From contig NBAY01000102.1 of assembly GCA_002794775.1 (NCBI GenBank), forward strand, positions 35,922 to 99,921: DNA of 64,000 nucleotides. The letters run 5' to 3'. Position numbers and translations under genes: made by a program. Positions within the stretch are counted from its first letter, which is position 1, and each line of letters opens with the position of its first letter. This document shows, piece after piece, positions 949 to 63,672 of this stretch. The DNA comes from Porodaedalea pini (lineage: Eukaryota; Basidiomycota; Agaricomycetes; Hymenochaetales; Hymenochaetaceae). The notes below the pieces were generated by a model. It ran no database searches. It had not been told where the DNA came from and saw nothing but the letters and a program-made list of their open reading frames with translations.

Positions 949-3900
949 ATGATTACATCACTTTCTATTCTTTCTTTGAACATCTGTCATTCCGAACCTA
1001 CTTCTGACCTGCTTTTCAAGTCTCTCTTTCACTGGGGCAGCTTATGTCCTGACATTATTTGTTTGCAGGAGATTCCTACTGTTTTCACCATTATCCTGTC
1101 TAAATCATCCCCATCAGGAGATCTACAATACGTTACTCGTAACTCAGATCCTTTCATTTGCGTACTCCCCCCTTCATCCCTTTCTATCTGACCCAGCTGT
1201 GCAACTTTCATTCACCCACGCATTGCCCATCTTTTTAACTCTCACCCTCATTTATCCCGACCCGTACGCCAAGTCACCATTAGCATCGACCGTGGCTCTT
1301 CCTTACCACCTGTTTATGTTTGGAACATCTACAATTCTCCCTCCACCCATCCTTTCGAAGATCCTTTTCCCAATCCCTCACAGTCTGACACACATATTTT
1401 TGTTGGTGATTTCAACAGACATTCCACCCTTTGGTCTGACATTCATCATTCTCAATATTTCCCCCTTTTTGAACCTTTCTTACATTGGCTCGACCAGTCT
1501 TCCTTAATAGTCGCCAACCCCTCAAACCCACCCACCTTTTTGTATCATCAGGGATCTTTCACCCTGGACCTTGCAATAAGCTCTTCCGACATCTCCCCTT
1601 TTATCAGTCAATCTCTTCTTATCGGCGATCCCTCTTTTAAATTCCATTCTGACCACCTCCCCCTTACTTTCAACATACCCATTTCATTCACTCCTCCACC
1701 AGACACTCACCCACTCCGCTTAGTTCACAAACAAGACCTTCCTTCTCTTATTACCGAATTTCATGAATTGCATCTGTTTTCATTTGACGCTTCTGATATT
1801 TCCCTCCCTTCTCACCTTGACACTAAACTACAATCCTTTTACACCACCTTTTCTTCCTTTACTTCTTGCTTTCTGCAAAAGCACAAACCCCGAACCTATT
1901 TCGGACCCCATTCTTGGTGGACTGAGTAGTGCAATCATGATTACCAAGCACACCACAACAACCCGTTGTCAGACAGCCTTGCCTGGCTTCACAAAACCCT
2001 CGCTGCAGCCAAATCCTCTTTCTTCAGCAACTTACTCCATTGATCTGACCACTCATCGATCTGGAAATGCCAATACCTCAGCTTGGCACATCGCTGCCAT
2101 CCTATCGGTGCCCTCAAACTCCCCTCTGGGGGTTACACCCTCAACGAGAGCGAGAAATCTGACCTCTTCTGCTCAACTTTCTTCCCGGCACTACCACCTG
2201 GTTATCACAATCAGTACTTGCTCCCTCCTTTAGCCGGCATCAAGCCAGTCTCTGTTGATGAAATGCTCCAGGCCTTAAAGGGCACCAATGATTTAACTGC
2301 CCCAGGCAGAAATTCTTTCACTTATTTTCATCTTAAACTTTTCATTGAATTTGAACCTCGCTTCTTTTCTCAAATATTTTCATATTGCCTTTCTTTCAGC
2401 TATTTTCCCCTGACATTCAAACATTCTATTGTTACGTTCATTCCCAAACCAAAGTGTTCTGACTTCTCACTCCCTTGTTCCTTTCACCCCATCACCCTCG
2501 TGGACACTATGTAGAAATTATTCGAGTGAATTCTCTTTAATTGCCTTCAAGTTATTTTCGAACAACGCTCCCTTATTCCCTCTTCACAACATGGCTGTCA
2601 GAAAGCGCTATCCGTGCTAACCACCTGCTATGAACTTTTACATCTAAATAATCACAAACCATTTATTTCTTCCCCTTTCTCTGGCGCTCCTGGCCTTGGC
2701 CCCGAGGAACCCAGACGTTGTCGCTTGTTGACCTCCATGGTCACAATCAACATACAAGGTTTTTTTGACAACATTTCTCACCCATTACTTATTGACCGTT
2801 TAACCCTGTCAAACATCCACCCTAATCTCATTAATTGTGTCTCTCATTGGATGCGCGACCACCCTATTTCTTTACATTTCAACCAATATTTTTCTGACAC
2901 TTTCACCAAACCCAACTGGGGCGTCCCCCCTTTCTCCCCTCATTTCTATCTTCGCAGCCGCCCCGGCTATCGAGGCTTATTACAAATGTTTTCTTTATAA
3001 TCGCCCCCTTCTTGCTTACATGGACGATCACCTCCTTTCTGCACGCTCTCTGAGCATGCGCACCAACCTCATTCATTTATGCAACCAGTTTTGTTTCCTT
3101 TCTATACAATTTTCACAACTGGGCCTTTCTATTGACCCAGATTCCATCGAACTTATCCACTTCACTCCGAGTACCACCCCATATTCTTCTTATACAACAC
3201 AACCAGAACATCAACCATCTCTCATCCTGTCTCCTTCTCAAACTATTCCTCCCCAGTCACACATTACATGGCTGGGTGTTATTTTTCATCATCATTTACG
3301 CCCTCATTTACACCTTCATTCTCAGGCCAATAAAGCCCTATCCACTCTTTCTCAACATTCCTTTTTATTTCAATCTTCACATGGCGCATATCTCGAATAC
3401 GCCCGTCTTCTCTATTTCAATCTTATCTGCTCTGTCGCCATCTATGGCACTCAGCTTTTCCCTGATTCTTCTTCAATCAATCCTATTTTATCACTGGTGC
3501 AACATCGTGCCCTTTCTCTTATGTTATCCCACAACGTCAACAAAGACGCTGCAGGTTCTCTACTTTCAATCCCACCCATTGATCTTTTTGTCCAATACCA
3601 ATCTAAACACTTCATAACTTCTTACATCTCATCATCCTGCCCTTCACTTCCCCCCTCAGTGGATATTTGCAATTTACTTCCAGCTAATACCACCATTCCC
3701 AATTCCAATCTTTACCCTATCATTCCACCTATTCATTCGCATCTTTCTCTTGTACCACTTACTTCCCGTAGACATAGTTCTTTGACCAAACAGTCATTTC
3801 TTCAACTTTTCAACCACCCCCCTCCTTTCCAATATTTTCTATTCACAGATGGCTCTGTCATTGAACAGGACAGCATCCCCACTGGTGGCCACGGGTATTC

Positions 3901-4760
3901 CATCATGCATAACCAACGCAAACTTGTATCCTTCGCCTCAGACGTGCATACTCAGAGTAACGTCCTCTATGAGGAGCAACAAGCCCTCATCACTGGTCTA
4001 GCACATTTCTCATCCTTGCTAGCATATCATGCCCACCCAACCCATCTTTGTGTTATTACCGACTCAGCCAATTGTGCGTGTCTTATCTTCTCAGAGGACC
4101 CCCTTCACGCAGCCTTCATCACGGCCGTTCGCAGACTTTGCAGTATATTCTTATCTACGCATCACGAGGCTTCCACCATCTCAGTACAGTGGGTGCCCTC
4201 CCATATGGGATTGCCTGGCAATTTGCGAGCAGACCAGCTCACAGCCCAAGCCTCACACGCACAGCGCAAAAGCCTTGCACCCAATACTTTGCCTAACTTA
4301 CACACACAATATTCCGCCAACCTTTTGGCCCAATGGTGGAACCGTGTCCTAAACCTCTGACATCATCGCAGCGTTACTACCACGCCTTTTATCTTACATC
4401 CTCGACGTCAATTACGTCCTTTTCTGCAGCTTAACCCTGAGAAGTGTATCCCCTGCAATCTCCAGTCAAAAGCGGTCGGGATCCTCCTCAACACACATGA
4501 CATGCATGACCGAAACCTGCCAAGCCGGTGCCCAGACCCACTCTGTATCAAACATGATGTCCATCATATTCTTAACATATGCCCCTTCTTTTCACAAATT
4601 CATCATCAATTCTTCTACAAGACACCTCTCCCACTTTTGTTTTCAAATTGGTTCGCACCATCTAATTTTATGCTCCTTATCCAATTCGCTTACTTTTCGT
4701 TTCATTGCCCACCTGATGCGATGCCTTATTATTCAGACCTCCCACCAGACCTCATATAAA
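949..4760 (+). pseudogene. LINE copy 1, ORF2 (endonuclease-RT-RNase H), decayed
   Basis: This is a broken polyprotein of the same LINE family as 13430-19640. The ATG at 949 opens an APE-type endonuclease (LNICHSEPTSDLL, then VGDFNRHSTLW-like and SDHLPL segments in other frames). Reverse transcriptase pieces follow: FIPKPKCSD, VTINIQGFFDNISH, and an active-site box reading AYMDDHLL near 3020. A longer frame at 2837-4360 carries the RT thumb and an RNase H domain (FTDGS near 3845, then E, D and D in YEEQQAL, VITDSANC and LRADQL). A CCHC-like tail (CPDPLC..HDVHHI..CP) ends near 4590 and the last stop is near 4759. Several frameshifts and stops separate these parts, including a small deletion in the GVPQGS box. 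Unlike copy 2, it keeps both Asp of the YxDD box. Confidence 0.85.
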
Positions 4761-5098
4761 ACAAAAATCTAACTTCACTTAACAATCACCTTTCACATTT
4801 ACGTAGTCACGCATTTGGACACCACAAAAGTTTCTTTTCTTCCTTTCTCCCCTTTTCCCTTTCTCCCCTTTGTTTTCATTGTAGTGTATGTAGTGCAGAG
4901 CAGTGCAATATTACAAAGTCATACGCACGTGATGCAGTTAGATCACGTGAAAGGAAATTTTCGCACATTCGGAAACGTCGATCAAGGCAGATCATCGACA
5001 ATCATATACGTGATAACGCAGTCACCTGATCTTGACGGATACTTGCCCAGGCAAAAATCCATCAGTCACAGTCACACTACACTGTCACATCTTGTGAC
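4761..5098 (+). other. LINE 3' tail and AT-rich spacer
   Basis: A pyrimidine-rich tract (4830-4880) follows the last LINE stop and probably belongs to its 3' UTR, because similar motifs follow the stop of copy 2. No poly-A tail or target duplication could be fixed. The remainder holds nothing recognisable. Confidence 0.4.
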
Positions 5099-5746
5099 AT
5101 GGCACACAAACGTCAAGAAAGCAAAGGACAACCAATGGAGGTTGATCCCCAATGCACCAAGTGCATGCTACTACAGAACATAGCACAGAAGGTCCCAGAA
5201 CTCCTGAAGACAATAGGATTAATGGACCAGGACATCACATTACGAGCACACAAGTGGGAAGGCCAATCCCCATACTTTGAAACAGGACAGGCAATCTACT
5301 ACTGAGATGCCAAGACATATAAAGTCCACATCAATAAAGAAGAACGTGGCATGGAGAACTATAAATGGGATACAGTCATCCAATACAATAAGGAGCCACA
5401 TGAAGAATGCAGGAACTGCAAGATGATGATACGAATACCTACCCCGAGTCCAGTACAAGAGAATGATGTACCAATACACATAACGACAGCACTCAAGCAC
5501 TGTTGGGCATACCTTAGGGACATAAAGCATCAAGGCACAATTACGCTATACGAATTCGAGCACGTGTCACGAAGACGAACATTCAAGATCACTCTAGCCC
5601 TAGGACCACATGACCCACCATTCACAATGGAGACATGTCTCGGCGGCACAGCCTTAACACCGAACGGACCTGACACTGAATGGCAATCCAAGAATAATGC
5701 ATGGATCCACATGGTTATCCCCAATGGATTTGAATGGGAGGAATGA
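5099..5746 (+). pseudogene. Unknown ORF with one in-frame TGA
   Basis: An ATG at 5099 starts a frame of about 215 codons ending in TGA at 5744-5746, broken only by TGA at 5303-5305. The reading continues in the same frame on both sides (QAIYY, stop, DAKTYKVHINK), so one gene with one nonsense codon, probably from CGA, is the simplest view. Visible features: two Cys-x2-Cys pairs (CTKC near the start, CRNC in the middle), a basic stretch SRRRTFK, and an aromatic C-terminus. It lies about 170 bp before the LTR-like block at 5914, so it may be the last ORF of a degraded LTR retrotransposon. It does not look like reverse transcriptase, integrase or a chromodomain, and I do not recognise the family. 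Confidence 0.5.
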
Positions 5747-5913
5747 ACACCCGAGCGCAGCAATGCAACCCGATAGGCTATGCAGTGCCACAACTGAGGA
5801 AGACGCTTCGAGAAGCAGGGAAGTAAAGCCCCGATATAGAAGCACACGGGAGAAGCAGGAAGTTAATTAAACCAAAGCATGTGGAGAACGTGGGAGCCCG
5901 ACTACTGAAACAG

Positions 5914-37577: not shown

Positions 37578-38427
37578 CAGCCTTTTTCATAAGTCCTGCG
37601 ACACGTGCATGTCATGTGAAGTGAGCCGCGTCAGAGCCAAAGTGTTGAAAAAATTAGAATGAATGCCTATTTTCTCTGTGAATTCTGCACAGTACCTGCT
37701 CATTAAGTACTCAAAAAAAAGGCATGGTTCTCAGAAGCAGAAATATTTAAAATAGGGAGCAATAAATTGACTGTGTAGGTGGGTGGAGATCAAACAAGTG
37801 CAGCCAGTCTGTTCTCTCACCCATTTCCACTGAGATTCAAAAATTATGGCTCCCCTACATCTACCTATAAAATTCTTTCCTGTGTCTGTAAATTAAGTAT
37901 ATGACTATACCAACATATCCTGCAAGTTTGAAGCCAATCCATTCAGTATTCATGGTGCAGCAGCAAGATTTGTGTTCCACTTCAAGCTCTTTCCACCCTC
38001 CTTTTCTCACAACAGGTCTTGCAGAGTAGAACACAAATCTTGCTGCTGCACCATGAATACTGAATGGATTGGCTTCAAACTTGCAGGATATGTTGGTATA
38101 GTCATATACTTAATTTACAGACACAGGAAAGAATTTTATAGGTAGATGTAGGGGAGCCATAATTTTTGAATCTCAGTGGAAATGGGTGAGAGAACAGACC
38201 AGCTGCACTTGTTTGATCTCCACCCACCTACACAGTCAATTTATTGCTCCCTATTTTAAATATTTCTGCTCCTGAGAACCGTGCCTTTTTTTTGAGTACT
38301 TAATGAGCAGGTACTGTGCAGAATTCACAGAGAAAATAGGCATTCATTCTAATTTTTTGACACTTTGGCTCTGACACGGCTCATTTCACATGACATGCAC
38401 GTGTCGCAGGACTTATGAAAAAGGCTG
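37578..38427. mobile_element. Foldback MITE, Tc1/mariner type, 850 bp
   Basis: Flanked by TA (37576-37577 and 38428-38429). The ends CAGCCTTTTTCATAAGTCC and their inverse extend into arms of about 400 bp (37578-37976 and about 38030-38427) with a loop of about 53 bp. The arms differ only by scattered substitutions and small A-run changes. Both arms are clearly related to the outermost part of the composite element at 38531-48309, and the left side matches that end as far as CAGGTCTTGCAG. No coding capacity. It looks like an internal-deletion derivative of a long-inverted-repeat element. Confidence 0.88.
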
Positions 38428-38530
38428 TAATGTTTTCTTATTTTAGGAATTGGCATTCCGAATCTCTATATTGTTCTCAGGCATGATGTGCTCGAGCGCA
38501 TTTGGAAGAGTAGGTGGTCACTTGGGTTTA

Positions 38531-40531
38531 CAGCCATTTTCATAAGTCCTGCGACACGTGCATTTCACGTGAAATGAGCCGCGTCTGAGCCAAAACATCG
38601 AAAAATAGAATGAATGTTGATTTTCTCTGTAAATTCTGCTCAGTACCTGCTCATTAAGTACTCAAAAAATAGGCATGGTTCTCAGGAGCAGAAATATGTA
38701 AAATAGGGAGCAATACATTGACTGTGTAGGTGGGTGGAGATCAAACAAGTGCAGCCAGTCTGTTCTCTCATACATTTCCACTGAGATTCAAAAATTATGG
38801 CTCCCCTACATCTACCTATAAAATTCTTTCCCATGACTGTAAATTAAGTATATGACTATACCAACAGCTCCTGCAAGTCTGAAGCCAATCCATGCAGTAT
38901 TCATGGTGCAGCAGCAAGGTTTGTGTTCCACTTCGAGCTCTTTCCACCTTCCTCTTCTCACAACAGGTCTTGCAGCACGGGCGAGAAGACCACTAAGATT
39001 ATGATTCTTTTTGTGTAATTATCGGACACATAAAAGCCATCTTCCCTGCAAGTTTCCTGTCCATTCACTTTGTGCTTCGACTGCTACGCTCAAATTTCTG
39101 TGCATACTACCAACACCTGTGAGCACGTGAGCACGTGTTAGCCAAGCCACCGCCATGCAAACACGAAAGCCAACACTCTACTTCCTCCTCCTCTCAGGTC
39201 GTTCCATGATGGTTTCAGGCAAGGCACTCTCAGATGATGCAAGACACATCATATTCAGACTGTATCAGTCACGACTCTTCACCGTGCATGACCTGGCCAG
39301 GGTAATAGATATCCATCGAGCAACAATCCACCGAACTGTTGCTCAACACGAGCGCATGGGGCATTTACGACAGGAGGGCACGAGGACCAGAAGACCAAGG
39401 TTGCTTGATTATGCGGATACACAGGTGAGTGCATTTTTTGAATTGTAATGACTCGCTGCGGCTAACTGAACTATAGTATCTTTTGAGCACGATAGAGCAT
39501 CACAAGGACCAGTACTTAGACAAGGTGAGGGAGGAGCTGGAAAGGGTAACAGGCAAGAAGGTTTCAGACACTACAGTATGGAGGTCTCTGCGCCGGGCTG
39601 GGTTCACTCTGAAGACGGTGCGGTGATGCTTATGGCTTCGCATCAGCAAACTTACTCTGCTCAAGATATCAAAAAGGGCACTTGAACGCAGCGAGTCCGC
39701 TCGGCTCCGGTACACATTGAGAATGGGATCTCAATATGAGGCAGAACAGCTCGTCTTTGTCAACGAGAGTGCATGCGACTGACGTACCTTCTTGAGGAAG
39801 AAAGCATGGGCTTTGCAGGGTTATCAGGCATGTCGGAAAGTGATCTTTACACGGGGAAAAAGGTGCGATGCTTACCTTTATGACTGCAGATCTGACTGCT
39901 TGCCTCTTCTAGGTATTCAATCTTGCCCGCAATCACTTCAACTGGCATGCTTGACTGTACAATACTGGAAGGATCCTTCAATGCCACCTCCTTCTCCGCA
40001 TTTATCAGGGATCTCTTGGACCACATGCAACCTTGGCCAGCCCAAAACTCTGTCGTGGTGATGGACAACTGCACAATCCACAAGTCACTGGAAATCCACG
40101 AACTCATTGAGTCAAGGTCCATCTATTTTGACCTGTCGTGCTGCGACGCAGGGCTCTTACTGATCTGACTCCGCACAGGGGCATGAAGCTGGAATTTCTC
40201 CCCGCGTATTCTCCGGACTTCAACCCGATTGAGCTGGCATTCTCTCTGCTGAAATCTCGACTTCGTCGGGTCAAATTCAGTGATGAGGAAATGGATGCTT
40301 CAGTATTCGTGAAGCTTTATGGTGAAACCATGTCTATCAGTGCTGCGGACTGTCGTGCTTTCTATCATCATTGCGGTTATCTCTGTTAGTGTCGGGTTTC
40401 TTCATCGAGTGGATACAGGCTTCCTTGTCACTGTCTCAACTGGTCCAACAATGTAATATATTCTGTCTATATGATGTACGCATAACTACTGTTCCTTGAT
40501 GTGAGAAACATCCTCCTGCGCATATCGAACA
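38531..40531 (+). repeat. Left 2-kb inverted-repeat arm of composite transposon
   Basis: Contains about 620 bp of terminal non-coding sequence, a five-exon transposase gene, and at its inner end (about 40486-40531, read on -) the last 14 codons of cargo gene B. Identity to the right arm stops at CATATCGAACA (40531). Confidence 0.9.
39155..40389 (+). pseudogene. Tc1/mariner (IS630-type) transposase, left copy, inactivated
   Basis: Five exons sum to 1,023 nt (340 residues): 39155-39424, 39477-39617, 39666-39862, 39913-40116, 40179-40389; introns 48-62 bp. The N-terminus is a helix-turn-helix (DDARHIIFRLYQSRLFTVHD, IHRATIHRTV). DDE region: first position LVFVNESACD, where the family has D-E-S; second Asp in VVVMDNCTIHKS; third acidic residue in YSPDFNPIEL. 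Two lesions: AAC at 39762-39764 replaces the first catalytic Asp, and TGA at 39780-39782 lies where DRRTF would read CGA. Both fit CpG decay. The length equals the family norm, so this copy is otherwise complete. Confidence 0.9.
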
Positions 40532-40640
40532 GTGTGAGTGAGTAATGCAAGACTTGTCTCGACCTCTGCATCCTTCACTCTTGGACCATATGCAGTCTTG
40601 CCGTGCCCAAAGGCTATCGTAGCGATGGACAATGAGTTGA
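40532..40640 (+). pseudogene. Diverged transposase fragment at inner edge of left arm
   Basis: CTCTTGGACCATATGCAGTC and the following CCCAAAGGCTATCG..GATGGACAA align with the transposase segment that encodes LLDHMQPWPAQNSVVVMDN, at roughly 80% by eye. It marks an older, separate transposase copy of the same family, cut off at the arm boundary. Confidence 0.6.
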
Positions 40641-40958
40641 GTGGTGCGGAACATCACGCACTCCATCATCATGGTCACTTTCTAGCAGTAAACTTCAATC
40701 ATTGAATAAATAAAATGTACATTCTACACAACTAATCATACAAAACCCTGGTATTTCTGTATGAAAGAAGACTTAGTAGGAGGAATACAAAAGGAAATAG
40801 TAGACAAAAGGATTTGAGGCTATGCGAGAGCATGTGTCTGATTGTTCAGACCGATTTGATCCACGCTTGAGTCCCTCCTCATTACTGCCACTCCAGTGAC
40901 CACCTTGGACGCCTCAAGGTCATCGTCGTGATGTCAGAGCAACTCTTCCGGAACTCTC
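40641..40958. other. Non-coding spacer inside composite element
   Basis: AT-rich sequence between the transposase relic and the 3' end of cargo gene A. No feature is recognised. Confidence 0.5.
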
Positions 40959-43900
40959 TCAGTGATGTCCACATCTACCCCCTCTTCTGGAGTAGCTGTA
41001 TTCCCGTCTCTGGTAGTCTCTATCCTCTCTTCCGGAGTAGCTGTATTCCTGTCTCTGGTAGTCTCTATCCTCTCTTCCGGAGCGGTAGTCGTGTCTCCGT
41101 TTCTGGTCGCTTCTACCCTCTCTTCCACCCTCTCTTCTGTAGTTCTCGTAAGTCTGATGCCAGTCAGCAGGGGGAGGTGGCCGGGACGAGGACGAAGTGA
41201 GGAGGGACCGGGATGTGTTTCCATGAGCTGTGCCTCCCCTTCCAGCATTAAACGAATTAGAGGGGCCTGGCTGGAGCGAGGATGAAGTGAGGGGGGATGG
41301 CGGGGACGTGTCTCCACGAGCCATGCCTCCTTTCGAATTAGAGGGGCCTTCATCATGCAGGTAATCCGATCGATTCTTTTTTTTCTCTGGCCTCGTCGTA
41401 AGGGCATGATCATCAGCGGGACACTTGCAAAATGATTTCGCAGATGACGATGGATAGGATTGCAATGCACTGGATTCCCGTTCACTGGATCGCACCACAT
41501 TGTCCACATGTGGAAGGGGGAACCCTACGCTTATAGGTCCGTCGGGGATACTGTTATGCATGTTGATTCCCTGCTGGACAGCCAAAATCGCTCTGAAATG
41601 TGGAGCACACTCCTTAAACTGCCCCTGCAAAATGCCACGCTCCTCCAATGCCTTTATTGCAGCTTCGTAAGATTCCACAGGCTCGGACATATCATGGGCA
41701 CCTCCGTGTAACGCAACTATGAGTGAGTCATAGGCATCTTCCCGCAATAGAATGTTGGCAATTCTGTCCTCCAAGAGCTTGAGAGCTGCCGATAGCGCAG
41801 ACAGGTCCTTGATGAAAGGCATATACGCCCTAAGATTCCTGTAATTCCTGCATAGCGAGTGCTTCACACTGCCCGCTGGTGCACTGGCCTCTGCAAGAAG
41901 TACTCGGGCATCCAGTTCTTCGTACGACAAGCTTGCTTCATTACAAGGATCCACAACAAGACCGGCATATTCTCTCATTCGACTATCGGCCGACTTAAAA
42001 TCATATTTTTCCGGTCCCTCCAGTTGCGGTATCGGGGAAGCGCTAAACAAGATATCCACATCCTCTTTTCATTGTCTGAAGGCGAGACGAAGTACGTATG
42101 CGATTTGGTTGACAGAATCGCGCGTAAGTCTCTTTTTCAAATCAAATTGCGTGCTCAATACAGTATCGCAAGGGGTAGAGCCCACGTCGGAGAGTTGGGA
42201 AGAGTGCGTGGAGTAGTGAGCAGAGCCTCTTTTAGGCCAACTCTTTTTAGACTTTTGCTGATACTGATTGAAAATCCACATCGCTTCATGGCCCGCGAAA
42301 CTCTCGATTTTGCTCATAGTCTCAGGTTTCCCCTTTAGCTCCGTGGATATCTCGGATGCCTGTGGAAGTCCGCTCCTAATAACTTCCACCAGAACAAGGG
42401 CGTCCGCATCGTTGTATTGGGCCCGGTCGCAGAAAGGTTTGCAATCTCCATATCCTGCCTGTTCCACCCTCACGACAAAGGAAAGCAAAGCGTTCATCTC
42501 TCAGAAACTCAGCCGTTCATGAGCACGCATAAAAGCAGCTAACAAGTCATGCAAGTTTTGGATTACCTTCTCTCTGTCGTACTTCGGATAGAGTTGCCCG
42601 AGATCAAATGCGTGGTTTTCCGTTATATTGGCGATTGATTTGAATGCCTCGAAGGGCACGCCAGGGCCTGCCTTTGGGGTTTGAGTGCGCTGCACAAGGT
42701 CCCTCAAGACCCGTTCATATGTCCACGGGTCACACACTGTGTTTTCCTGAATACGAGGGTGGTCGATCGGGATGAAATAATGAATCCTTTTAGGCTTGCG
42801 GACATCCTCATTATTTGAAGTGTTTCCCGAGCAGTAGTGAATCTGCAGGACATGCTCCACAACACTGAATCCCGTAAGGAGTATAATCTTTCCTTCCTCG
42901 ATTAATTTTCGAAGGTGCAACTTATCCGCTGCTTCAGGCTCCTAAATCAGAATGTGAGAATCAAGTAGAGTGATACTAGAGAAGGAGCTTTACCCCGAGA
43001 ATAGCATCCATATGAAGACTAAGTACACCACGTATTTCATCTTCTACTCGACGCGCATTGATTTCGCTTTGTTCATTTTTCTCCTCCAATGTATTAACCC
43101 GATCCGTGACAAAAAGAAGGCCGACCTGGGCCTCCGAAGAACGTGCCTTGTCGGCTGCAGCAACATCTTGAACAGTTCGAAGCACGGTGGCCTCGCTTGT
43201 GTGGATTTGTGACTCGAGTTGGGTTATCCTAGCCAAGAGAGAATCATAATTTTTTCTGGCGTGAAGACATTTTTTACGCCGCTTTGACTTTTCCTCAATC
43301 TGACCATGCTTAGCAACAGCTGCCTCCACAATTACCACAACTTCGTCATAGGACTGTGATGCCTTCGCTTGAACGAGCTGCTTCTTTAGCGCTGCACTTT
43401 CGGATGCTGAAAAATAGTGCACAGATGCATCAGGACGATCCCGCAGCAATTGTATAAATAGTACTTATGGCTACTACGACTAGATTCCTCCCCTGAATGC
43501 TCTCAAGCCACTGTTAGAACCTGAACTTTCACCTTTTCATTTATTTTCCCTTTTACCATTTCCTCTATTATATTTGTCCTTTTCATTATATTTACCCATC
43601 TTACACAATCATTCCCACACTGCCTTCATTCGTTCCATTCCCACTCGTTATGTAATGTTAGGTAATATAGTCTCACGGTCGTCGCTATATAAGGTCTCAG
43701 GAATCGCACGAACTCCTTGTTCTGCTTTTCCTCTTACCTCCGCGACGACCTAGGTGAGACTCGTCCCCCTTGTATTAGTTTAGACTTGTATTAATCCTCT
43801 TACCTCCGCGACGACCTAGCCTGAGTACAGCGTGTCCCAAGACTCCACTCGAGTATAGCACGTCCCAGACGACAGTCAGCCGAGGCCTGCCCAGTCCGAG

Positions 43901-44365
43901 TCGTCTCCCGGACTCCCGCCTAACAGCCACTTCCTTTCCCTTTCCTTTTGAATCATTCTCTGCAGGTCCTTCAGAAGAAACTTCATCTGACGTCACGTCA
44001 GAAGGGCCCATGGAACTTACCAGGGAAGACATATGCTTACCAGATAGCACCTCTTGCAACTGCTCAGAGTCTTCCATGGTGTCTTCATGATCATGAACTT
44101 CACTGGGTGCTACACAAAATGCCTGTTTGTAAGCCACCAAAGACTTAGAACATGGCAATCTATTCCGTACCATTAACCATGACTATGTCACTGGAAGGAT
44201 CCATAGGATGCCGTCCAGCTTGTCCTTCCATAGCAATGGGTACTTATAGGGGTGAGCAATGAGGTGGGAGAGCAAGACTGATGGGGATGGGAGGAGAAGG
44301 ACGAGAGATAAAGATGAGACCGGTGCATTTTGATGCCCTGAACCCTCCTTTTGTATTCTTGCCAC
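40959..44365 (-). pseudogene. Cargo gene A: coiled-coil, Arg-rich tail protein, broken
   Basis: One long minus-strand reading with several stops. The N-terminal part, KYPLLWKDKLDGILWILP, is followed by TAG at 44183-44185 and then WLMVRNRLPCSKSLVAYKQ and an acidic Ser/Thr-rich stretch. The solo LTR at 43512-43925 then splits the gene. After a likely acceptor near 43400 comes a coiled coil (YDSLLARITQLESQIH, VNTLEEKNEQSEINAR). An intron at about 42922-42973 leads to DKLHLRKLIEEGKIILLTGF. TGA codons at 42501-42503 and 42069-42071 interrupt the same frame, both consistent with CGA. The C-terminus has two near-perfect repeats rich in Arg, Asp and Tyr (SGREDRDYQRQEYSY) ending in GGRCGHH. I do not recognise the family; RNA binding by the Arg-rich tail is a guess. 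Confidence 0.6.
43512..43925 (+). repeat. Solo LTR (chromovirus family 1) in cargo gene A
   Basis: Begins TGTTAG, ends CTAACA, and is flanked by the direct repeat GCCAC on both sides (43507-43511, 43926-43930). It has TATATAAGG at 43687 and two internal copies of CTTACCTCCGCGACGACCTA. It is the same family as the LTRs at 51820, 58609, 59869 and 62761. Confidence 0.93.
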
Positions 44366-44553
44366 ATTGGGATAGCCAGTTCCCTACCTTCAACCTTGGT
44401 CCACAATGGCTCAGTCGGCATGAAAGCAATAGTCATGAAGGAGGTAGAGGTCGCCGACATCTTTCGGGAGGCTTAGGTACCAAAATATTCGGTAAGCAAA
44501 AATATCCGATGCTCTAAGCGAAATCGAATTGCGTTTCTTTTCCTGACCCTACG

Positions 44554-46354
44554 ATGCCACCTCAACGTGTCAGAAAGAAGTCCAAAAAACTCAAAGATGG
44601 CGAAGAACTAGCACCAGAATTAGCTGTGCAGATGAAGAAACGCCCTGTTGGTCGCCCCAGGAAAAATGAAGTCCCCAATCAGGTCCCCGAAACTCCTGCA
44701 AAAAAGCAGTCGAAATCGAGTGGTAAGAAATATGCTACAACAGCAAAGCCGACCCGCCGAACTGTGAGTTGTGAAATTTGATGCAAATGCTCTCTCTGAC
44801 CGGTTTTCATGCCCATAGCCACGCAAGAAGGGCAATGACAAGGATACAGTTGAACAGGAGCATTCGCCTGAAGATCAGGGGGATATATCCATTGCGGATG
44901 TCGTTCGGGCTTCAGGACTTGGCTTGAACGACACTATGAATGAAATGCAGGGTTTTGACGATGACAGATCAGCCTTCGATGAAATTCCTGACTCCCCTGA
45001 CAAGCCTGATGAGCGTTCTTTCCATCTTGATGATGGTACGAAACCTCCATTCATTGTTGCCTAAGGCTGTGGCTAAGAAAAGTATAGCTGGTGAGTATGT
45101 GGACTGGAATACTCCCTCCCTTGGACATGCAAAAGCTTATGGATGGATCACATCGACACCTGCTGCAGAGAAAAAGCCCGAACTGGAAGTCATGGTAAAA
45201 ATTCATGATGGTACTGGCATGTGAGACATGAAGATCAACTCCAAGATGTCACTGGCTGATTTGATCAATGAAGTGGTTTCAATCACCCGGGGCCGTTCTA
45301 CATTCAACCAACTTGGTTACACAGCTTGCTGGTCTGTGAAGTCTGGGACAAAGCTTGAACCAGAATATTTGGATACACAAGACCAGTTGGACGTGCTGTT
45401 CAAACGAGTTCACAGGCATCAAGCAGCTGAAAAGAAGAAGAAACGAGGTAACAAAAACCCCAGAATTGTCATTCGGAATCTCAGTAATCAGGTTCGTCTA
45501 TAGTATTTGATGTATAAAGTGGTTCCTGACATGCAGTGAAGAATACACGCGGGAACAATGGGAACAGCAATAAACAGCAAAGTGCAACTAGAACAAATGC
45601 GACTCCTTCAGGGGTCACCGGTGCTAAGGAAGCTTACGATGCTGCACTCGAACGGATTATGGCGCAAATCGCAGCAGCGTTCAAATGCGATAAACATGAC
45701 GGCAGGCTCTGTGGTAAAATAAGAGGGTCAAAAGACCATCTTATGTATTCCAACAAACATCTTGTTGAACATGCAAAACTGATTGTGAGTCCATTGACAA
45801 AGCACAATCTCACCGGACTAAAAGCATACTTTGTCCAGTATAAGAATACTCCCGGAGTCAAAGTGGACAAAGTACCGGGGCAACTGAAAGTATTGGACAA
45901 GCAGTGGAAAGCAGCTGACAATGCCAGCGCAGGAACCGGCTCTGACATAGCAACTGGGCCTACAACATCCCTCCCCAACAGTGCTCCTGTGACAGCTGGA
46001 ACAGTGGCAACTGTAGTGCCAATGCAACCTTTCAACCAGCCGGTCATTGCCCAGCACTACGAAATGCATAACCGGGTGATAGCTGAGTGCAGGCCACGCG
46101 ATTACCCTTCTGTTCGGAATTGGATTGAATCATTGCATGATGACATGGAGAGAGGCCGCGATGACTACCAATACAGGTCTCTGCTACCTGTTTTTGAGGC
46201 CAATGATGTTAAACGCTTGGATGACTTGGCTTACTTAGAATTTGGAAGGCTCGAGAAGATGGTTATTGATGCTCAAGTGGAGGCAAGCATTGGGTTACTC
46301 AATTGTATTGTTCGATATGCGCAGGAGGATGTTTCTCACATCAAGGAACAGTAG
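44554..46354 (+). pseudogene. Cargo gene B: AT-hook protein, one in-frame TGA
   Basis: Exon 1, 44554-44763, starts MPPQRVRKKSKKLKDGE and holds an AT-hook (KRPVGRPRKN). Introns are 44764-44818 and 45036-45087. Exon 3 gives AGEYVDWNTPSLGHAKAYGW, then TGA at 45222-45224 (GM, stop, DMKINSKMSLAD; CGA predicted), then ITRGRSTFNQLGYTACW and KRVHRHQAAEKKKKRGNKN. The junction near 45500-45540 needs an intron or frame change I could not settle. The C-terminal part (45538-46354) has a compact helical domain (RPRDYPSVRNWIESLHDDM, VFEANDVKRLDDLAYLEFG) that vaguely recalls a SAM domain. Its last 15 codons lie in the right arm. DNA binding through the AT-hook is likely; its role is unknown. Confidence 0.6.
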
Positions 46355-48309
46355 TTATGCGTACATCATATAGACAGAATATATTACATTGTTGGACCAG
46401 TTGAGACAGTGACAAGGAAGCCTGTATCCACTCGATGAAGAAACCCGACACTAACAGAGATAACCGCAATGATGATAGAAAGCACGACAGTCCGCAGCAC
46501 TGATAGACATGGTTTCACCATAAAGCTTCACGAATACTGAAGCATCCATTTCCTCATCACTGAATTTGACCCGACGAAGTCGAGATTTCAGCAGAGAGAA
46601 TGCCAGCTCAATCGGGTTGAAGTCCGGAGAATACGCGGGGAGAAATTCCAGCTTCATGCCCCTGTGCGGAGTCAGATCAGTAAGAGCCCTGCGTCGCAGC
46701 ACGACAGGTCAAAATAGATGGACCTTGACTCAATGAGTTCGTGGATTTCCAGTGACTTGTGGATTGTGCAGTTGTCCATCACCACGACAGAGTTTTGGGC
46801 TGGCCAAGGTTGCATGTGGTCCAAGAGATCCCTGATAAATGCGGAGAAGGAGGTGGCATTGAAGGATCCTTCCAGTATTGTACAGTCAAGCATGCCAGTT
46901 GAAGTGATTGCGGGCAAGATTGAATACCTAGAAGAGGCAAGCAGTCAGATCTGCAGTCATAAAGGTAAGCATCGCACCTTTTTCCCCGTGTAAAGATCAC
47001 TTTCCGACATGCCTGATAACCCTGCAAAGCCCATGCTTTCTTCCTCAAGAAGGTACGTCAGTCGCATGCACTCTCGTTGACAAAGACGAGCTGTTCTGCC
47101 TCATATTGAGATCCCATTCTCAATGTGTACCGGAGCCGAGCGGACTCGCTGCGTTCAAGTGCCCTTTTTGATATCTTGAGCAGAGTAAGTTTGCTGATGC
47201 GAAGCCATAAGCATCACCGCACCGTCTTCAGAGTGAACCCAGCCCGGCGCAGAGACCTCCATACTGTAGTGTCTGAAACCTTCTTGCCTGTTACCCTTTC
47301 CAGCTCCTCCCTCACCTTGTCTAAGTACTGGTCCTTGTGATGCTCTATCGTGCTCAAAAGATACTATAGTTCAGTTAGCCGCAGCGAGTCATTACAATTC
47401 AAAAAATGCACTCACCTGTGTATCCGCATAATCAAGCAACCTTGGTCTTCTGGTCCTCGTGCCCTCCTGTCGTAAATGCCCCATGCGCTCGTGTTGAGCA
47501 ACAGTTCGGTGGATTGTTGCTCGATGGATATCTATTACCCTGGCCAGGTCATGCACGGTGAAGAGTCGTGACTGATACAGTCTGAATATGATGTGTCTTG
47601 CATCATCTGAGAGTGCCTTGCCTGAAACCATCATGGAACGACCTGAGAGGAGGAGGAAGTAGAGTGTTGGCTTTCGTGTTTGCATGGCGGTGGCTTGGCT
47701 AACACGTGCTCACGTGCTCACAGGTGTTGGTAGTATGCACAGAAATTTGAGCGTAGCAGTCGAAGCACAAAGTGAATGGACAGGAAACTTGCAGGGAAGA
47801 TGGCTTTTATGTGTCCGATAATTACACAAAAAGAATCATAATCTTAGTGGTCTTCTCGCCCGTGCTGCAAGACCTGTTGTGAGAAGAGGAAGGTGGAAAG
47901 AGCTCGAAGTGGAACACAAACCTTGCTGCTGCACCATGAATACTGCATGGATTGGCTTCAGACTTGCAGGAGCTGTTGGTATAGTCATATACTTAATTTA
48001 CAGTCATGGGAAAGAATTTTATAGGTAGATGTAGGGGAGCCATAATTTTTGAATCTCAGTGGAAATGTATGAGAGAACAGACTGGCTGCACTTGTTTGAT
48101 CTCCACCCACCTACACAGTCAATGTATTGCTCCCTATTTTACATATTTCTGCTCCTGAGAACCATGCCTATTTTTTGAGTACTTAATGAGCAGGTACTGA
48201 GCAGAATTTACAGAGAAAATCAACATTCATTCTATTTTTTGATGTTTTGGCTCAGACGCGGCTCATTTCACGTGAAATGCACGTGTCGCAGGACTTATGA
48301 AAATGGCTG
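46309..48309 (-). repeat. Right 2-kb inverted-repeat arm of composite transposon
   Basis: Exact inverse counterpart of 38531-40531 in all stretches compared. Identity begins at TGTTCGATATGCGCAGG inside the 3' end of cargo gene B and runs to the outer CAGCC at 48309. Confidence 0.9.
46451..47685 (-). pseudogene. Tc1/mariner (IS630-type) transposase, right copy, inactivated
   Basis: Same gene as 39155-40389 in the opposite orientation, with exons at 47685-47416, 47363-47223, 47174-46978, 46927-46724, 46661-46451. It carries the same Asp-to-Asn change and the same TGA (47058-47060), so both copies share the lesions. Confidence 0.9.
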
Positions 48310-48660
48310 TAAGAAAGGAAATATTATAAAATAATAAAAGGAGCAAAAGAAAAGCAAAAAGCTACTTTTCCTATTTTCTTCTTGGTGTCCCAAGTAATTA
48401 CATGTGATTGTAGGTCTGGTAATGTCTGACAAGAATTGTAATCCTCCATAAGTCTTGTGAGCTTTGACAAGTCTTGTGGGTCTTGTAAGAAGTGCCAACC
48501 AGTGAAATGGCATGTAATATTACTCACAAGGCTTGCATATAATTTACATATTTCATTTCTTACAATTAAATGTATGCAAATGTAAGATTTGTCTCATTTT
48601 TGTGATGTACTTTTCTGGCCTTACTGAGATCGATGAGGCGAAAGTGCCTATAAGGGCATT
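48310..48660. other. AT-rich spacer
   Basis: Sequence between the composite element and the DUF6698-like gene. Short repeats of CTTGTGAG/GGTCTTGT type occur at 48440-48540. Nothing else is recognised. Confidence 0.45.
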
Positions 48661-51159: not shown

Positions 51160-51819
51160 CTACTTTCTATCTGACATCTTCAATGTGTGCTTGACCAGCA
51201 TAAGATCCCCTATGGTCCCTGGCTTAAGCCTTGTGTGGTGAAGTGCAATTGTATCTTGTCCACCAGAGAAGAATCATTCAACTGCTATAGCTGAGCCTAT
51301 AGAGTATTGTGTTAATTATATAAATAAACAGATCAACAAAACATACCAGGTATACAATGAATATCTCAAGCAAGCTTGGACAGAGTTGGAAATTGTGTAC
51401 AGCATGCTGCCCACCATTTTACAGGCTCACAATCAACCCATGACCTCTCTTGTTTCATAGAGAAGTATTCATCTAGCTTGTCACTTTTGGTAGATGGGGC
51501 ATTGCTCAAGAAAAGCCTCACAAAATCATGTGTATTACTGTCTGTGGTGTTGTTGTTTGAATTATCAGCAGACAGCTCATCATCTTGAATAGTTGCATAT
51601 GATGCATCAAAGAAATCTTGCAGGGCCACTTTTGAATTGTTGATGAGCTGCAAAAGCTGCATATCACCTTCTGCATTCCTTCTCATATTCATATATGATA
51701 TGCAAGGATCAAGTACTCAAATAATAATAAGAGTATAGGTACCAATGTGCAACAAGCAGAGAGTCACTTGCATGAAGCCCATAGATAGTAAGGAGATGCA
51801 TTAAAGTGAAAGAGATACT

Positions 51820-62760: not shown

Positions 62761-63182
62761 TGTTAGGACTCGAACTTTTCCTTTCTTTTATTTTCCTTTT
62801 ATCATTTCCTTTCTTTTAATCGATCCTTCTCATTATATTTAATCGTCTTTTCAATCATTTCTCACACTCCCTCCACATGACCTTCATTCATTCCATTCCG
62901 CCCGTTTATGTAACTTTAGATAATATAGTCCCACGGTCGCCGCTATAAGAGGTCTCAGGAATCACATGAACTCCTTGTTCTGCTTTTCCTCTTACCTCCG
63001 CGACGACCTAGGTGAGACTCACTCCCCTTGTATTAGTTTAGACTGGTATTAATCCTCTTACCTCCGCGACGACCTAGCCTGAGTAAGCATGTCCCGAGTC
63101 TACGCTCAAGTATAGCACGTCCCAGACGATAGTCAGCCGAGGCCTGCCCAGTCCGAGTCGTCCCCCGGGCTCCTGCCTAACA
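62761..63182 (+). repeat. 5' LTR of a second chromovirus copy
   Basis: 422 bp, TGTTAGGACTCGAAC to CTGCCTAACA; it has the TATA-like CTATAAGAGG at 62943 and the duplicated CTTACCTCCGCGACGACCTA motif. It is followed by the internal leader of the same family, so this is a 5' LTR, not a solo one. It borders the 5' end of the hAT gene. Confidence 0.9.
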
Positions 63183-63672
63183 TAAAAGCAGAACCTCACC
63201 CAGGCTCATCCCCAGCGTACGTCGTCGCTGTCGACTCACCTTCACTCGGTCTAGAGGAGCGCTCCCCTCGACGGACTTGACGTGTAAACCCCCTAAACGA
63301 CAACCCTCAACCCTGCCCGGACGTTTTCGGATGTTCGTGTATTATGTAAACATTTCAACCGACATTTCCCGACCCTGGCTCTACGAATTAGCCTCTGGTG
63401 GAGCATGCACCTGACATGGACTTGGGTAACCAGACGAGTACAAACTTCAACGACAATCTCATTTGTGATCTTGCTTGGATCCTACCGCCTCGTCATCAAT
63501 TTCGCCGATGAACCCGTTCAACATTGGCATAACCCTGGATCAAATGCACAACCGATCCCTGTCCCTCCGCCAATGTCAAGATAGATCTTACCGATGAACA
63601 GCGACGGGCCCTTCCTGCATCAGCCCGTTGGGATCCAGATCGACCAAGTTATGTCACGACCAACAATAGCGG
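63183..63672 (+). mobile_element. Chromovirus (family 1) leader, second copy
   Basis: TAAAAGCAGAACCTCACCC and what follows matches the leader at 57952-58608 in inverse orientation. It reaches about as far as the pre-gag region (CGACCAAGTTATGTCACGACC) before the family-2 LTR cuts in. Gag lies beyond the window. Confidence 0.85.

Follow-up and report, generated by a model that had tools for sequence, protein, structure and literature searches.

A degenerate Tc1/mariner-type transposon of Porodaedalea pini with a transposase gene in each 2-kb inverted arm, putatively maintained by gene conversion between the arms

In this study, we describe a transposon in a 64,000-nt stretch of contig NBAY01000102.1 from Porodaedalea pini (hereafter the window, within which window coordinates are numbered). 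The element is very probably a degenerate transposon of Tc1/mariner type, about 9.3 kb in length, whose terminal inverted repeats (TIRs, here called arms) of 2 kb each carry a transposase gene and enclose two further, family-specific genes, with arms that are maintained by gene conversion and a plan that originated when one end was copied onto the other. A preliminary description of the window had proposed a single Tc1/mariner-type transposon with a transposase inside each 2-kb inverted arm, and this proposal holds: the gene lies in the same frame in both arms, and its product, modelled on a sister copy, matches the Pfam family DDE_3 at E=1e-30 (107 bits, cut-off 28.6).

Architecture of the unit and its transposase

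Positions 38531-40531 and 46309-48309 of the window are inverted copies of each other with 1 mismatch in 2,001 positions (at position 70). The mirror over 2,001 bp that had been described is a near-perfect one, and comparison with sister copies sets the true arm length at 2,000 bp: position 2001 is the first interior base on each side, reading A on one side and G on the other in most units, and in the window unit it is A on both sides, which yields one extra chance match. The outer tips, TTTA/CAGCC...GGCTG/TAAG with TA on both sides, are as first described. The reported lack of an inner terminal repeat was borne out as well, since the best match to the 25-mer tip in the interior or the inner arm has 9 mismatches, no better than in 50 shuffled interiors, where the best match has at least 8 mismatches (median 10).

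Each arm holds a five-exon gene with introns of 48-62 nt (as modelled) for a Tc1-type transposase of 340 residues. The modelled copy shows the catalytic motifs VFVDES, VMDN and NPIE, in which the second and third acidic residues are separated by 34 residues (DD34E), and its N-terminal part gives weak matches to HTH_32, HTH_33 and HTH_Tnp_Tc3_2 (E 2e-6 to 8e-5, all under the curated cut-offs); no sequence relative was found among solved structures at E<=0.01. Its closest counterparts in named species come from Sanghuangporus vaninii (53%) and Tricholomella constricta (47%), and these, taken with the short introns, point to a host of the Agaricomycete type. In the window unit, codon 176 of the gene is an in-frame stop in both arms and Asn has replaced the first catalytic Asp (VFVNES), and judging from these two lesions the window's own copy is dead.

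Recurrence in the genome

The genome holding the window (53,267,584 bases, 53.3 Mb, in 201 contigs) was searched with the arm, and at least 40 full-length arms were recovered (the best 40 of 545 candidates), 26 of which form 13 inward-facing inverted pairs, nine of these spanning 9.3-9.8 kb. The interior recurs in long stretches of 91-98% identity covering query positions 1-2981 and 3394-5777 (best 31 of 1,848 candidates). Gene 2, the interior gene nearer the left arm, was found at 39 loci by our own clustering (67 of 67 candidates scored), every one with at least one arm alongside, and gene 1 was recovered at 33 of them (79 of 216 candidates scored). Both arms could be placed at 30 of the 39 loci, namely 27 pairs read fully or partly, the torn unit C105, and units C1 and C82, in which the second arm is partial. 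The standard unit, as in C148 and C26, consists of 2,000 + ~5,360 + 2,000 bp, about 9.3 kb, with fixed inner junctions that are identical in every pair read; in many units a tandem repeat is shorter by about 45 bp, and nested insertions are present in the longer units. No solo arm was recognised among the matches listed. The recurrence that the preliminary description had looked forward to was found: TA-flanked arm-interior-arm units stand at numerous loci, and for one of them a clean empty site is available. Misassembly of the window unit is very unlikely, because the unit recurs at many loci with different flanks.

The two interior genes had been described as cargo. Both recur, but they are not cargo in the bacterial sense, since the interior is constant, and random capture of cargo was rejected on the same ground. 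Gene-1 sequence without gene 2 nearby occurs at three more arm loci (C65:184.9 kb, C71 and C24:37.8 kb). The locus at C24:37850 was considered as a simple relative lacking gene 2 and was rejected, being a truncated unit composed of arm 883-2000 and interior 2-300. On C28, two outward-facing half-units (C28:88445-93783 and C28:~104551-109889) are broken at the same interior coordinate (query 3803), either by an inverted duplication or by a common nested insertion.

Target sites, tips and foldback elements

TA adjoins CAGCC at all 45 arm ends read, where the sequence in arm orientation is TTA at 42 and CTA at 3. The empty site comes from unit C12 (16.6 kb including nested DNA), which sits inside a miniature inverted-repeat transposable element (MITE) belonging to its own family. 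Where the window's MITE has CTGCTCATTAAGTACTC, C12 has CTGCTCATTA, then the unit, then TAAGTACTC, so that TTAA has become TTA, unit, TAA with an exact duplication of TA. The insertion in C12 lies at about position 126 of the family MITE or arm end and was read on both sides. Units C19:122407-122534 and C15, judged from their left flanks, occupy the same TTAA at that position, and the left arm of C38 and the right arm of C97 are also interrupted at about position 126.

A genome-wide count of the tip, allowing up to 2 mismatches, gave 439 + 437 occurrences (control, 0). Among the matches listed (100 tip places), many are paired with starts about 820-830 bp apart and represent a foldback MITE, the copies of which are 96-100% identical (best 40 of 529 candidates). 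One copy lies about 100 bp outside the window unit, its own arms 99% alike over 334 nt. The MITE carries only the outer ~400-445 bp of the arm, from which we infer that the remainder of the arm would be dispensable in cis for mobility.

Arm identity and gene conversion

Arms were compared over at least 1,500 common positions, or 500 where the pair itself has fewer. In all 27 pairs the closest arm is the partner. Divergence within the pair is 0-0.85% in 24 of them, the others being C39 (1.05%), C3 (1.74%, 575 bp compared) and C10b (2.4%), a unit spanning 43.5 kb. The corresponding range for the closest arm belonging to a different unit is 0.81-5.4%.

Most of the variation among arms is CpG decay. 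The first 28 arms show 201 variable columns, 193 of them simple transitions and 164 located at CpG, and 2 gap columns; CpG decay varies by unit, amounting to 12-53% in the arms and 13-60% in the interior of 13 units. If the two arms of a unit had decayed independently, 1,047 of the 2,484 CpG site pairs (27 pairs, 101 sites) would be expected to be discordant, whereas 128 are; per site, discordance is 43% between units and 5.2% within units. It was also observed that arm decay consists mostly of CpG transitions on both strands, a methylation-like signature, and that small indels are rare. The idea that conversion shields arms from CpG decay was not supported, since decay of the arms is about that of the interior in the 13 units.

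Larger lesions are likewise common to both arms. The transposase carries stops in at least one arm in 16 of the 22 pairs readable on both sides, and these stops are identical in 14 pairs and differ in two (C28b and C10b); the other six pairs have no internal stop in either arm, as read on reference columns. In C35, C4 and C110 the same nested insertion stands at the same position of both arms, inserted sequence included, and the arms are colinear at 99.9% over 1,650, 2,029 and 1,717 bp, respectively. The differences that do separate left and right arms, 204 in all, crowd towards the arm edges: 31% fall within 60 bp of an edge versus 7% expected, and their mean distance from the edge is 343 bp versus an expected 516 bp, a value as low as which was met in 0 of 20,000 draws.

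Arm-to-arm gene conversion, keeping the arms alike in place, would be the best reading of these data, because CpG decay, stops and insertions are shared within units, differences are crowded at the edges and partners are each other's closest arms. Little homogenisation is seen in C10b and in the torn unit C105, whose arms lie about 70 kb apart with 21 differences; these two cases, and two only, fit a need for arm proximity. In the second family described below, the scores remain alike for ends separated by 35-37 kb (C12, C14).

A second family

The transposase at C106:25600-28900 is 66% identical, over the matched part, to that of the window's family (family A), with introns at matching positions and one in-frame stop in the single copy read. 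C106 was initially considered as a single-copy simple relative (the protein search scored 119 of 432 candidates), and this was rejected when the DNA search revealed a family, here termed family B. Among the best 40 of 92 DNA matches, 14 end at query position 1590, 21 continue into the interior and 5 end earlier, and one match of each of the first two kinds forms an inward-facing pair on nine contigs (C100 at ~22.1-30.8 kb, C72 at ~73.7-82.5 kb, C28, C42, C38, C4, C1, C97 and C3). Thirteen contigs carry opposed outer ends that are at most 37 kb apart, and the scores are equal in eight of these cases (best 40 of 97). Family B thus appears, on these sequence comparisons, to be built like family A.

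The arm boundaries of the two families do not correspond. That of family B (position 1590, a BLAST limit of few-base precision) lies 1 nt past the stop codon of the transposase, and the converging neighbour gene stops 157 nt beyond it; that of family A lies 141 nt past the transposase stop, within gene 1. No gene-1 match was found inside family B units (79 scored of 216 candidates). That both families carry the entire transposase in each arm, with unmatched boundaries, would reflect either two origins or a boundary shift. Because two families share the plan with non-corresponding boundaries, a complete gene in both arms is suggested to have been favoured. Allowing up to 2 mismatches, the tip of family B, TACTGCCCTTTTCAGAAGT, occurs 162+155 times (control, 0), and the family apparently has its own foldback MITE of ~1.08 kb.

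Interior genes and other features of the window

The coordinates of the features are collected in Table 1. Gene 1 is convergent with the transposase gene of the adjoining arm and overlaps that arm by 45 bp. Its frame is free of internal stops in 3 of 13 copies and has 1 or 2 in the remaining copies, with one in the window copy. An AT-hook-like motif, KKRPVGRPRK, lies near its N-terminus (under the Pfam threshold), and no relatives were found at E<=1e-3 among 7,996 scored candidates. Gene 2 has a single relative at E<=1e-3, P0001 (91%), on a 4.5-kb contig from another source (7,998 candidates scored); its large exon encodes 587 residues in one copy and 640 in P0001 and matches no Pfam family. 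Its protein has an N-terminal part that looks coiled-coil-like by eye and an Arg/Ser/Glu-rich C-terminus with 45-bp repeats. The 45-bp tandem repeat lies at 40974-41108, differs in copy number among units and is expanded in unit C12 (L017:2922-3344). An AlphaFold prediction for P0001 made from the sequence without an alignment had a mean predicted local distance difference test score (pLDDT) of 38 and was not used. Because of their position and conservation, our guess is that the two proteins may be DNA-binding or assembly partners of the transposase.

The 412-bp repeat in gene 2 is foreign, being absent from that place in the other listed units, and members of its family are also present in the two arms of C110 and of C35, both of them sister units. 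It contains an internal 25-bp duplication and is long terminal repeat-like by its context in sister units; related stretches lie elsewhere in the window, near 51818, 58609, 60114 and at 62761-63183. The right flank of the unit (48310-48460) is a dispersed repeat, with matches starting at the insertion site and at least 38 other places, and the left flank matched only itself among the matches listed. The right-hand junction may fall at the terminus of another element, or units may have exchanged flanks.

Table 1. Features of the window unit and its surroundings (positions within the 64,000-nt window)
Feature	Position	Strand	Remarks
Left arm (terminal inverted repeat, 2000 bp)	38531..40530	+	Outer tip CAGCC..., transposase gene; inner end repeats the last 45 bp of gene 1 as an orphan copy
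Right arm (terminal inverted repeat, 2000 bp)	46310..48309	-	Mirrors left arm; inner end holds last 14 codons and stop of gene 1
TA target-site copy, left	38529..38530	.	Context T-TA; TA duplication seen at the empty site of a sister unit
TA target-site copy, right	48310..48311	.	Context TA-A
Transposase gene, left arm	39155..40389	+	Exons 39155-39424, 39477-39617, 39666-39862, 39913-40116, 40179-40389; modelled on sister copy
Transposase gene, right arm	46451..47685	-	Same exons and same two lesions as left copy; arms identical over the gene
Gene 1	44554..46354	+	4 exons: 44554-44763, 44819-45035, 45088-45483, 45537-46354; 546 codons; exon limits modelled
Gene 2	40959..44173	-	Orphan protein; broken by repeat and stops in window copy; N-terminal exon structure provisional
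412-bp dispersed repeat	43513..43924	.	Inserted into window copy of gene 2
850-bp foldback MITE, same family	37578..38427	.	Outer ~400-445 bp of arm twice, inverted; flanks TTA...TAA

Discussion

The history that we consider most likely is that terminal inverted repeats grew to 2 kb, each coming to enclose a whole transposase gene, and that the long arms arose when one end of an element with one transposase was copied onto its other end, an event that may have taken place in families A and B separately or been followed by a boundary shift. A transposase encoded by either arm would bind the two outer tips, excise the unit and insert it at T-TA-A; the arms, with no inner tip, would not move alone, and after insertion the two arms of each unit would convert each other and stay alike. 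A stronger version of this history, in which both terminal repeats acquired the transposase on two or more occasions, the boundary each time falling at the gene or shortly beyond it, since each twin can repair the other, would make the unit a self-repairing transposon comparable with plastid inverted repeats and Y-chromosome palindromes; we regard it as possible, and on balance rather doubtful.

Several observations weigh against the history outlined above. In five of the 27 pairs (C38, C24a, C5c, C3 and C97) a single arm is broken or carries a nested insertion, which means that some lesions were left untouched by conversion. The arms of C35 and C110 differ outside their common insertion, where one resumes as arm and the other reads otherwise. 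Changes private to a unit number 81 in both arms and 40 in one arm only, and those common to both arms could in part be older than the insertion. The second arm was not located at 9 of the 39 gene-2 loci (two on C28, two on C19, and C93, C23, C30, C40 and C139), where C30 lies at a contig end and several carry insertions; second arms at C19:311 kb, C23 and C40 were not found within the 3.5-5 kb stretches read, and at C19 and C23 large nested insertions are suggested because gene-1 matches lie tens of kb further on. An empty allele of the window locus was not found among the best 40 of 51 candidates, and transposition activity is deduced from copy number, the tips and one empty site. The end of gene 1 inside the arm, otherwise a point in favour of the proposed origin, could also be explained by loss of its own stop and extension into the arm, and the plan of family B was judged from coordinates and one arm sequence.

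The same data have to be read against explanations of arm identity other than conversion in place. If insertions were recent and the arms were copied afresh and reset at each transposition, unit-private changes would equally appear in both arms; the one-arm lesions of the five pairs named agree with this, as do 6 of the 27 pairs, which show 0-1 differences in a comparison of 1,876 positions or more. Arm CpG decay nevertheless parallels that of the interior, with the decayed sites common to both arms, and the crowding of left/right differences at the edges fits conversion limited by the ends of homology, not independent mutation after a reset, so that we consider this explanation unlikely. That the identity is an artefact of assembly or polishing is exceedingly improbable: reads could be misplaced between near-identical arms, and differences at the edges, anchored by the flanks, would be the easiest to retain, yet C10b (48 differences in total), C39 (21) and C28b (13) show differences in mid-arm, and polishing could hardly have put nested insertions, 412 to >850 bp long, at one and the same position of the two arms of a unit. 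Conversion between the arms is accordingly the reading that we retain for their identity.

As regards origin, a true composite, that is, two complete Tc1 elements inverted around cargo with the inner ends later lost, would explain a transposase in both arms and their inverted arrangement, as in bacterial composites, and gene 1 could have run into the arm secondarily. We hold it to be decidedly unlikely, because no inner tip or remnant of one was found in the arms or the interior; in addition, every pair read has the same inner junction, solo arms are lacking among the matches listed, and the family B arm, which ends with the transposase stop codon, could not accommodate a 3' end. A composite of two independent elements is to this extent not supported, and copying of one end onto the other is preferred. 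The unit might also be mobilised by a transposase encoded elsewhere, the transposases in the arms being passengers. The lesions of the window gene in both arms, the stops in the majority of readable pairs and the MITEs, which show that the outer ~400 bp suffices in cis, agree with this. It is nonetheless very improbable in our view, given that six pairs are stop-free in both arms, that the modelled copy retains the DDE triad, that family B, one in-frame stop aside, retains the gene with the same intron positions, and that the gene belongs to a superfamily whose TA duplication matches the sites.

A transposon of this kind would illustrate a route from a simple one-gene element to a large multi-gene transposon that looks composite without a two-element origin. 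With about 30 replicate pairs in one genome and 5-23 kb between arms, it would offer a natural system for measuring gene conversion between inverted repeats, and divergence of the terminal repeats would be unusable for dating such insertions. If it is true that conversion preserves the transposases, it would represent a survival strategy new to DNA transposons.

Comparison with known systems

The bacterial composites Tn5 and Tn10 have inverted arms, each with a transposase gene, and further genes in between; each of their arms is a complete insertion sequence (IS) with inner and outer ends that is able to move alone, and the cargo is variable. Unlike these, the window unit belongs to a family in which inner ends were not found and the interior is constant. 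The statement of the preliminary description that no fungal family of this plan is known agrees with our search of the open-access PMC literature, in which no transposon of a eukaryote was found to carry a transposase in both of its inverted arms; subscription articles and the reports of Repbase are outside that scope. With Tc1/mariner elements the unit shares DDE_3, DD34E, TA duplication and inverted terminal repeats, and its helix-turn-helix matches are weak ones, while 9.3 kb of length, 2-kb arms, a transposase in both repeats, two further genes and arms putatively kept alike by conversion are unlike the usual members.

As far as the available part of PMC7325037 goes, Tc1 elements are ~1300 bp long with TIRs of ~30 bp and a single open reading frame (ORF), TIRs of several hundred bp being found in Minos and others. 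The unit is Tc1/mariner by its transposase and TA duplication and differs in architecture from the members described there. The same part describes Tec, with TIRs of ~700 bp and three ORFs, the third encoding a DD34E transposase. The ciliate TBE and Tec elements, compared here by that description, resemble the unit as multi-gene relatives of Tc1/mariner and differ in having one transposase ORF, which is not described as lying in the TIRs, ciliate hosts and apparently other accessory genes.

KolobokP, an animal DNA transposon with long terminal repeats, has been likened to bacterial composites (PMC9587614, available part). According to that text its repeats are direct, ~450 or 660 bp long, with short TIRs of their own and solo copies, and its transposase, of the Kolobok superfamily, is interior, while the repeats of the window unit are inverted and hold a transposase that is DDE_3 by Pfam. 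Foldback and Mutator-like elements such as Tm1 are similar in their long inverted ends and MITE-like derivatives; Tm1 differs in its 9-bp duplications, and a transposase within the repeats is not described in the available part of PMC3169594. Gene conversion between the two TIRs of one element is described for an inversion in a Wolbachia IS, as the accessible portion of PMC3004938 has it; that case concerns a bacterial IS for which no transposase gene is described in the TIRs, while in P. pini conversion would act on 2-kb gene-bearing arms across 5-23 kb of interior.

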